A stretch of DNA of 64,000 nucleotides from Salisediminibacterium beveridgei (GTDB lineage Bacteria > Bacillota > Bacilli > Bacillales > Salisediminibacteriaceae), in the NCBI RefSeq assembly GCF_001721685.1, contig NZ_CP012502.1, positions 3,410,001 through 3,474,000 of the forward strand, read 5' to 3'. Positions 25,872 through 26,304 of the stretch are shown piece after piece. The translations under genes were made by a program, and so were the position numbers. Within the stretch, counting starts at the first letter, position 1; each line of letters opens with the position of its first letter. The notes under the pieces are model-generated. The model was given only the letters and a program-made list of their open reading frames with translations. It searched no databases and was not told the DNA's origin.

Positions 25872-26002
25872 CGTCTATCCACTCCATCGTTCTGATTAAC
25901 GATCGAAGAAAAGGGTTCACACTGTAAAAGCCCTTCACCTGTCATGATCGCTTATTCGTTCTTATTCACTCTGATTCAAATTCCAGCTTCTCATGTGACA
26001 AG

Positions 26003-26015
26003 ACAGACGGTCTGT
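26003..26015. promoter_or_regulatory. ACAGAC-N-GTCTGT palindrome upstream of adk
   Basis: Perfect 6-bp arms around one base, 131 bases before the adk start. The GAC/GTC core is the style of TetR-family operators. No such regulator is encoded nearby. The function is a guess. Confidence 0.35.
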
Positions 26016-26057
26016 TGTATGAATGTCAGTGCACCATCGGTACAGTTCATAATCATG

Positions 26058-26083
26058 GAAAAAGCCCGCTGAACATGGCGGGA
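26058..26083 (-). terminator. Terminator-like hairpin after the secY relic
   Basis: On the - strand CCCGCC and GCGGGC-type arms (5 bp plus one G-U pair) close a six-base loop and are followed by CTTTTT. If active it splits the spc operon here, separating rplO from adk-map-infA. Confidence 0.6.
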
Positions 26084-26304
26084 ATTTATTCATAAAAACT
26101 GTGAAACAGCCGGATTGCATCTGCCAAGCTTACGATCGGGCAATTTACGGCAGCTGTCTGTCTTTTTGCTGAAGCTGGATAAGATCACCCAATTCAGAAA
26201 ACCGGGCATCAGGATGAAAGACGAACAGCGCCGTCAGGATGAACGTGATCAGTGCACTTATCCTGTTCATCCACCCGGAAGTTATTGGAGATCGTCAGAA
26301 AGAT
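26083..26304 (-). pseudogene. secY: Probable secY relic (internally deleted, no start codon)
   Basis: SecY, the essential protein-channel subunit of about 430 residues, belongs between rplO and adk, but no frame here can encode it. Directly after the rplO stop the - strand reads, in one frame, FLTISNNFRVDEQD, close to the SecY start FKTISNFMRVSDIR; the codon where ATG is expected is ATC. One frame over, from about 26269, ITFILTALFVFH resembles the first membrane segment IIFTLLMLIVFR. At the other end, before the hairpin, CAGATGCAATCCGGCTG and TTTATGAATAAA recall the C-terminal QMESQL and GFMNK region. The whole is 222 bases, so over 1 kb would be deleted. The N-terminal match is good and the C-terminal one weak. 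Confidence 0.6.

Follow-up and report, generated by a model that had tools for sequence, protein, structure and literature searches.

The spc operon of Salisediminibacterium beveridgei lacks secY, and we consider it very probable that an old paralogue of the family, SecY-B, replaced the operon-encoded protein and that the operon copy died in place. SecY is the essential channel subunit of protein export. What we observed directly is a single SecY in the genome, its paralogy and phylogeny, the losses, the relics and a difference in evolutionary rate; SecY-B would be the working channel, because it is the only candidate for this essential job. The stretch of DNA that we analyzed, called the window here, comprises 64,000 nucleotides (C1:3410001-3474000) of a genome assembled as one contig of 3,582,268 bases (99.95% complete).

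Two intact genes on the - strand flank the site. The last intact spc gene ahead of the gap is rplO (ribosomal protein L15; 26304..26744; NCBIfam TIGR01071, 182.8 bits, cut-off 77.95), whose stop codon occupies 26304-26306, and the first intact gene past it is adk (adenylate kinase; 25218..25871; NCBIfam NF001380, 349.1 bits, cut-off 251), which starts at 25871. An ORF check of the 432 bases between them (25872-26303) found no SecY frame, bearing out the original prediction that secY is missing from the spc operon. The terminator-like hairpin that had also been predicted is indeed present: a consensus scan located it on the operon strand at 26059..26082 (-), with the stem CCCGC..GCGGG at 26082-26065 followed by CTTTTT. 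A hairpin with the same stem occurs in the corresponding gap of the congener G002. The same type of scan found no promoter with at least 9 of 12 matches between the gap and adk. We infer that adk-map and the genes beyond have become at least partly independent of transcription reading through from the spc operon.

The adk-proximal end of the gap is probably the old secY-adk spacer. When the adk upstream regions of 30 family genomes were folded and inspected by eye, the hairpin AAGGG..CCCTT (25909..25935, - strand) appeared as a probable remnant of the hairpin that separates secY and adk in most relatives; it is weak in S. beveridgei, and its counterpart is strong in G001 and G002, the two congeners. 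By eye, this GGGAG-CTCCC hairpin was seen in 20 of the 30 genomes, including G001 and G002, and as a variant in three more; it is weak in S. beveridgei and was not seen in the six Alkalicoccus genomes examined. The adk leader (25872..25903, - strand), a short hairpin plus ribosome-binding region recognized by eye, is common to relatives, and a small hairpin ahead of the adk ribosome-binding site recurs across genera within the 75 bases upstream of adk in the same 30 genomes. Two further observations concern other parts of the window. At the str-S10 junction, an open frame of 302 amino acids (35774-36682, - strand) lies between tuf (36914-38128) and rpsJ (35206-35628), and a Pfam search with it gave no match to E 0.01. 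At gathering scores, Rfam matched the window only once, at an ordinary ribosomal protein L10 leader (51333-51474, - strand; 84.7 bits).

The search of the whole genome for secY that had been proposed with the original prediction found a single full-length SecY outside the spc operon. The one match to Pfam SecY (PF00344) lies outside the window at C1:688372-689412 and covers all 306 profile positions. The open frame of this gene, secY-B, spans positions 9166-10476 on the + strand of locus L002 (C1:679000-698999), with the ATG at 9175 as the likelier start. Its product scored 469 bits against the NCBIfam SecY model TIGR00967 (cut-off 253.6; positions 1-413 of 414) and 379.6 bits against PF00344 (cut-off 32.2). 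It contains the GIRPG loop, which aligns with the solved chains 7xha_Y and 3j45_y and which carries the arginine needed for SecA (R357 in E. coli).

To the left of secY-B, the other strand encodes a putative response regulator, a histidine kinase and a propeller-like lipoprotein, all called by sequence and the last below the Pfam cut-off. To the right are genes called fadN, fadA and fadE, placing secY-B upstream of fadN-fadA-fadE; fadA and fadE pass their NCBIfam cut-offs, and the best model for fadN does not reach its own. An inverted repeat of 15 pairs follows the secY-B stop codon (L002 10490-10523). Visual inspection of 15 upstream regions revealed a TGnTATTCT-like box some 45-70 bases ahead of the start codon in seven (S. 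beveridgei, G001, G002, G006, G014, G018 and G031) and variants of it in two more, G003 and G008; none was evident at that place in the five Alkalicoccus rows or in G009. A consensus promoter scan of the region before secY-B on its own strand found no site of 9/12. Overall, secY-B is likely a transcription unit with its own promoter and terminator. The gene for SecG is 14 kb away (C1:673942). Judged by dnaA, identified by sequence at C1:3036-4391, secY-B lies about 0.68 Mb from the origin, whereas the distance of the spc operon is about 0.15 Mb.

To account for the missing gene, the original prediction had offered a functional copy at another site, the use of a paralogue, or the loss of more than 1 kb in the assembly. 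The first two proved to be one and the same gene. As for an assembly error, with secY really in place, we found nothing in its favor, and we regard it as having next to no probability given the single-contig genome and the full-length SecY at another locus. Moreover, comparison of the same interval in relatives, also proposed with the prediction, showed that secY is absent in both congeners with other gap lengths (counted with the stop codon, 435 bases in S. beveridgei, 391 in G002 and 157 in G001), and the same state is in print for B. selenitireducens (PMC8046335).

SecY-B is a family trait. Our set comprised 35 genomes of the family. In 24 of them SecY is encoded twice in full length, by a gene between rplO and adk and by another elsewhere in the genome; the genomic contexts were examined for all 24. 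An intact secY occupies the spc place in 25 of the 35 genomes. Ten genomes have SecY-B only, namely all three of Salisediminibacterium, six of the eight of g6 (Alkalicoccus) and, tentatively, G034, a MAG of 76% completeness that also gave no rplO. G005 is the sole genome of the 35 with the spc copy only. Among 146 genomes sampled from the order outside the family, secY adjoins rplO in all 142 whose SecY rows were listed, and more than one SecY occurs in two (G061 and G163, both of family f28).

This distribution bears on the possibility of a recent event within the genus, either a cut-and-paste of secY or its duplication. The published account implies as much, having found no long-distance transfer of secY and spoken of a novel duplication followed by deletion (PMC8046335). 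For S. beveridgei we hold such a recent event to be highly unlikely, since SecY-B is present in 34 of the 35 family genomes and forms one clade that is unmixed with spc copies. In addition, 27 of the 34 genomes have fadN downstream of secY-B in the same orientation within the stretch fetched, the exceptions being G009, G017, G021, G026, G029, G032 and G034.

We built a tree of 74 SecY rows, which omits 15 of 89 distinct SecY groups, all from Sporolactobacillus. SecY-B formed one clade (100/99) beside the clade of the family's spc copies (95/92), and both together were held at 100/99 inside the order. A tree of 80 rows, with 7 of the 74 dropped and 13 added, included both G061 copies and gave the same topology for SecY-B and the spc clade. 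Only matches above 400 bits were taken; L084 (Terrilactibacillus, a match in pieces) and L086 (an Omnitrophota MAG) lie outside the trees. In the trees, SecY-B of Salisediminibacterium groups with SecY-B of other genera and not with spc copies. The genus order within SecY-B broadly matches, but not throughout, that in a tree built from 14 other proteins of the spc region; the conflicts are Alteribacter, placed at the base, and G031, placed beside G008 and Alkalicoccus. G005 stands at the family base in the tree of the 14 proteins, and therefore either the duplication postdates the divergence of G005 or SecY-B was lost in G005. Taken together, these trees argue for a single duplication inside the family, followed by vertical descent of SecY-B. 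The duplication is as old as most of the family, and SecY-B is neither the product of a recent move nor an accessory SecY2.

Some features of the trees could also be read as horizontal gain, in which a foreign secY displaced the native one: the stem of the SecY-B clade is long (0.18-0.20) and its genus order departs in places from that of the spc proteins. We judge this extremely unlikely, as the sister of SecY-B is the family's own spc clade, and one scan of named genomes (57 loci) gave no closer relative outside the family. After the duplication inside the family, the spc copy has been lost at least twice, in the Salisediminibacterium ancestor and separately in Alkalicoccus. If no regain is allowed, the best trees ask for three to four losses, but the data do not reject a tree in which Alkalicoccus lost the copy just once (p-AU 0.2).

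Accessory Sec systems are usually recognized by a second SecY, so SecY-B could be taken for an accessory SecY2 working with SecA2. This, too, we find extremely improbable. SecY-B falls below both NCBIfam SecY2 cut-offs (188 of 353 bits and 187.3 of 249.6 bits), and of 22 family genomes tested, just four encode another full SecA; all four keep the spc secY, and S. beveridgei is not among them. SecE is single in all 22 family genomes tested; in S. beveridgei, the gene predicted to be intact gave the one SecE match, at C1:3463582-3463740 (window 53582-53740). SecG is single in the nine genomes tested, S. beveridgei included. S. beveridgei has one full SecA, and a second SecA match reached 20.2 bits over 68 positions, below the cut-off of 24.6. 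The four genomes with the second, SecA2-like protein are G005, G007, G008 and G013.

The two copies evolved at different rates while they coexisted. Relative to the 14 neighboring spc-region proteins, SecY-B had a median distance ratio of 2.16 in pairs of two-copy genomes (n = 167 pairs, not independent, with a distance >0.05 and drawn from 19 of the 24 genomes), compared with 1.03 for spc SecY. Between sole-copy genomes, the SecY-B ratio was 0.70 in nine hand-chosen within-genus pairs from 7 of 9 genomes. It was also low (0.86) in the one Alkalicoccus pair that keeps both copies, and hence the slow-down of SecY-B is not strictly tied to loss of the spc copy. Consistent differences between SecY-B and spc SecY were confined to two positions, one of which is a difference in C-terminal length, and no functional divergence is therefore visible between the copies.

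The gap of S. beveridgei retains a trace of the dead gene. An nhmmer search with a DNA profile built from the family's spc secY genes (n = 20) matched gap positions 3-101 (profile positions 10-104; 15.1 bits, E 9.7e-7) in the expected place and direction. This relic of about the first 32 codons (26206..26304, - strand) begins straight after the rplO stop codon, and its start codon ATG reads ATC. By chance such a match is rare: none of 300 dinucleotide shuffles per gap scored above 1.5 bits, none of those of the own gap scored above 0, and the best of 1,975 random 435-base pieces of the remaining window scored at most -0.1 bits, so that none reached 15.1. The original prediction of a decayed SecY N-terminus with ATC for ATG is thus upheld. 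The decayed copy as a whole stands for about the first 100 bases and not for the rest, as nothing further was found in S. beveridgei: the profile recovers the N-terminal block only, and neither the hydrophobic stretch nor the C-terminal likeness that had been suggested. All three frames of the gap contain stop codons. With the same profile, no secY sequence was detected in the gaps of G001 and G002, and the relic of the genus accordingly rests on 99 bases of one species.

The relics in Alkalicoccus are longer and broken. Counted with the stop codon, the six gaps measure 721 (G016), 1089 (G020), 885 (G024), 899 (G027), 901 (G030) and 899 (G033) bases, and they contain secY blocks in order, with the best block scoring from 61 to 217 bits. 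We also considered whether the gaps are kept as structured spacers. Folded whole, the relics lie below their dinucleotide shuffles; in the 12 sequences computed, of 16 planned, the z scores ranged from -2.2 to -6.8 in nine gaps and from -2.9 to -4.4 in three intact genes. When the same nine gaps were folded in windows of 120 bases, however, their mean z of -1.69 (sd 1.34) was no different from that of 59 ordinary intergenic regions (-1.45, sd 1.82), with 12 intact secY genes at -0.81, and for this reason we rejected the idea, the folding being ordinary for non-coding DNA.

Within the spc secY of g3 (Salipaludibacillus), g6 (Alkalicoccus) and g7, one stretch of 72 bases is nearly invariant, at synonymous sites too (nucleotides 553-624 of the G008 gene; examples are L100 of G008, L120 of G018 and L164, the G027 relic). 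In nine of the 11 intact spc genes of g3, g6 and g7 (G004 and G028 left out), synonymous codon identity peaked at 0.946 in the best window of 18 codons (codons 185-202), whereas it averaged 0.536 over the gene; none of 10,000 permutations reached this peak (maximum 0.842). In control groups the best window lay elsewhere and was reached by 972 (Evansella) and 787 (Alteribacter) of 10,000 permutations for spc secY, and by 2,267 (g3, g6 and g7) and 274 (Evansella) for SecY-B. Among the 35 family genomes, BLAST with the element gave at least 97.8 bits in every one of the 17 that belong to g3, g6 and g7, and at most about 75 bits in the others. Ten strong matches among 397 genomes of the order all fell in g3, g6 and g7; one more, in G390 (86% over 58 bases), looks by eye like ordinary coding likeness without a stem.

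The element also persists in the dead copies. All 60 fixed positions are kept in the relics of G020, G027, G024, G030 and G033, and 58 of 60 in G016, while in the rest of each relic 28-43% of aligned positions differ and 20-52% of the length is lost (Fisher p 9e-9 to 1.5e-11 per relic, for six related relics in a MAFFT alignment, with element borders set after its inspection). Length changes within the element are confined to a loop of 10, 11, 12 or 13 bases across rows, which in the dead copies varies by one or two bases, and the reading frame is thus not what has been conserved; a conserved small reading frame was ruled out, no frame being common across this loop. The fixed parts are predicted to form two hairpins, the second with the free loop, and their near-invariance leaves covariation unable to test them. 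An Rfam search of the G027 rplO-adk stretch gave no match to the element up to E 5. We rejected an attachment or phage site, as viral contigs gave no exact match to the 25-base core, plasmids gave no match, and a phage collection matched with one phage only (two records, E 0.6). Relocation within Salisediminibacterium was likewise rejected, since BLAST found no element in G001 and G002 and only a 29-base coding match in secY-B of S. beveridgei; this lineage hence does without it. We lean towards a real nucleotide function, with the element under a selection at the nucleotide level that is separate from that on the SecY protein. Its possible roles are a control site of the spc-alpha operon, acting as RNA or as DNA, or a segment of a small RNA; the operon copy, freed from coding by SecY-B, would have decayed around it. 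If so, dead genes act as a filter that exposes a possible hidden nucleotide signal within conserved coding sequence. The frozen element is the more surprising part of our findings, the operon cluster that hosts it being very well studied.

The replacement of the operon copy by SecY-B very probably proceeded as follows, to judge from comparison of the genomes. Early in the family, an intrachromosomal duplication of secY would have given a free-standing secY-B upstream of fadN-fadA-fadE, probably with its own promoter and terminator. During a long coexistence, the operon copy would have evolved slowly and the free copy fast. In the Salisediminibacterium ancestor, and separately in Alkalicoccus, SecY-B would then have taken over as the sole channel subunit to partner SecE, SecG and SecA, each of them present once. 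Its counterpart in the spc operon would have lost its function and, in S. beveridgei, eroded to about 100 recognizable bases and the old secY-adk spacer, and relatives in the family may show earlier stages of the same takeover. The family would thus display an exit path for an essential operon gene by duplication, long coexistence, takeover and erosion. It also allows tests of whether the coupling of secY to ribosomal protein genes and its place near the origin matter for growth.

B. selenitireducens is presumably a sister species of S. beveridgei in the same genus. A study of 204 genomes found secY outside the spc operon in this species alone (event F84), saw no long-distance transfer and spoke of a novel duplication followed by deletion (PMC8046335). 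The move of secY as such is therefore already known from that species (PMC8046335). Among literature listings with the starts of abstracts, whose scope leaves out most subscription journals, there was no account of a family-wide second secY, of relics or of a frozen element, and as far as our searches show, these three are new. The state of S. beveridgei is the same as in B. selenitireducens, but whereas that account deals with one species (PMC8046335), here a second copy is found family-wide and coexists with the first in 24 of 35 genomes, and the operon copy was lost at least twice with visible relics. The case also resembles rpsN2, rplJL and rpmJ, for which the same source describes that a copy elsewhere allows loss from the str-S10-spc-alpha cluster (PMC8046335); here, in contrast, the gene encodes a membrane channel subunit, and graded relics of the operon copy remain. 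A full-length second SecY outside the spc operon is found in the same order in G061 (family f28; L167, G061:C32), but this is an independent duplication, as the second copy groups with its own spc copy and Anaerobacillus and not with SecY-B. Finally, like accessory Sec systems (SecY2/SecA2), the family has a second SecY in a Gram-positive lineage, yet SecY-B is of the housekeeping type and, in S. beveridgei, is the sole copy and has no SecA2 partner.
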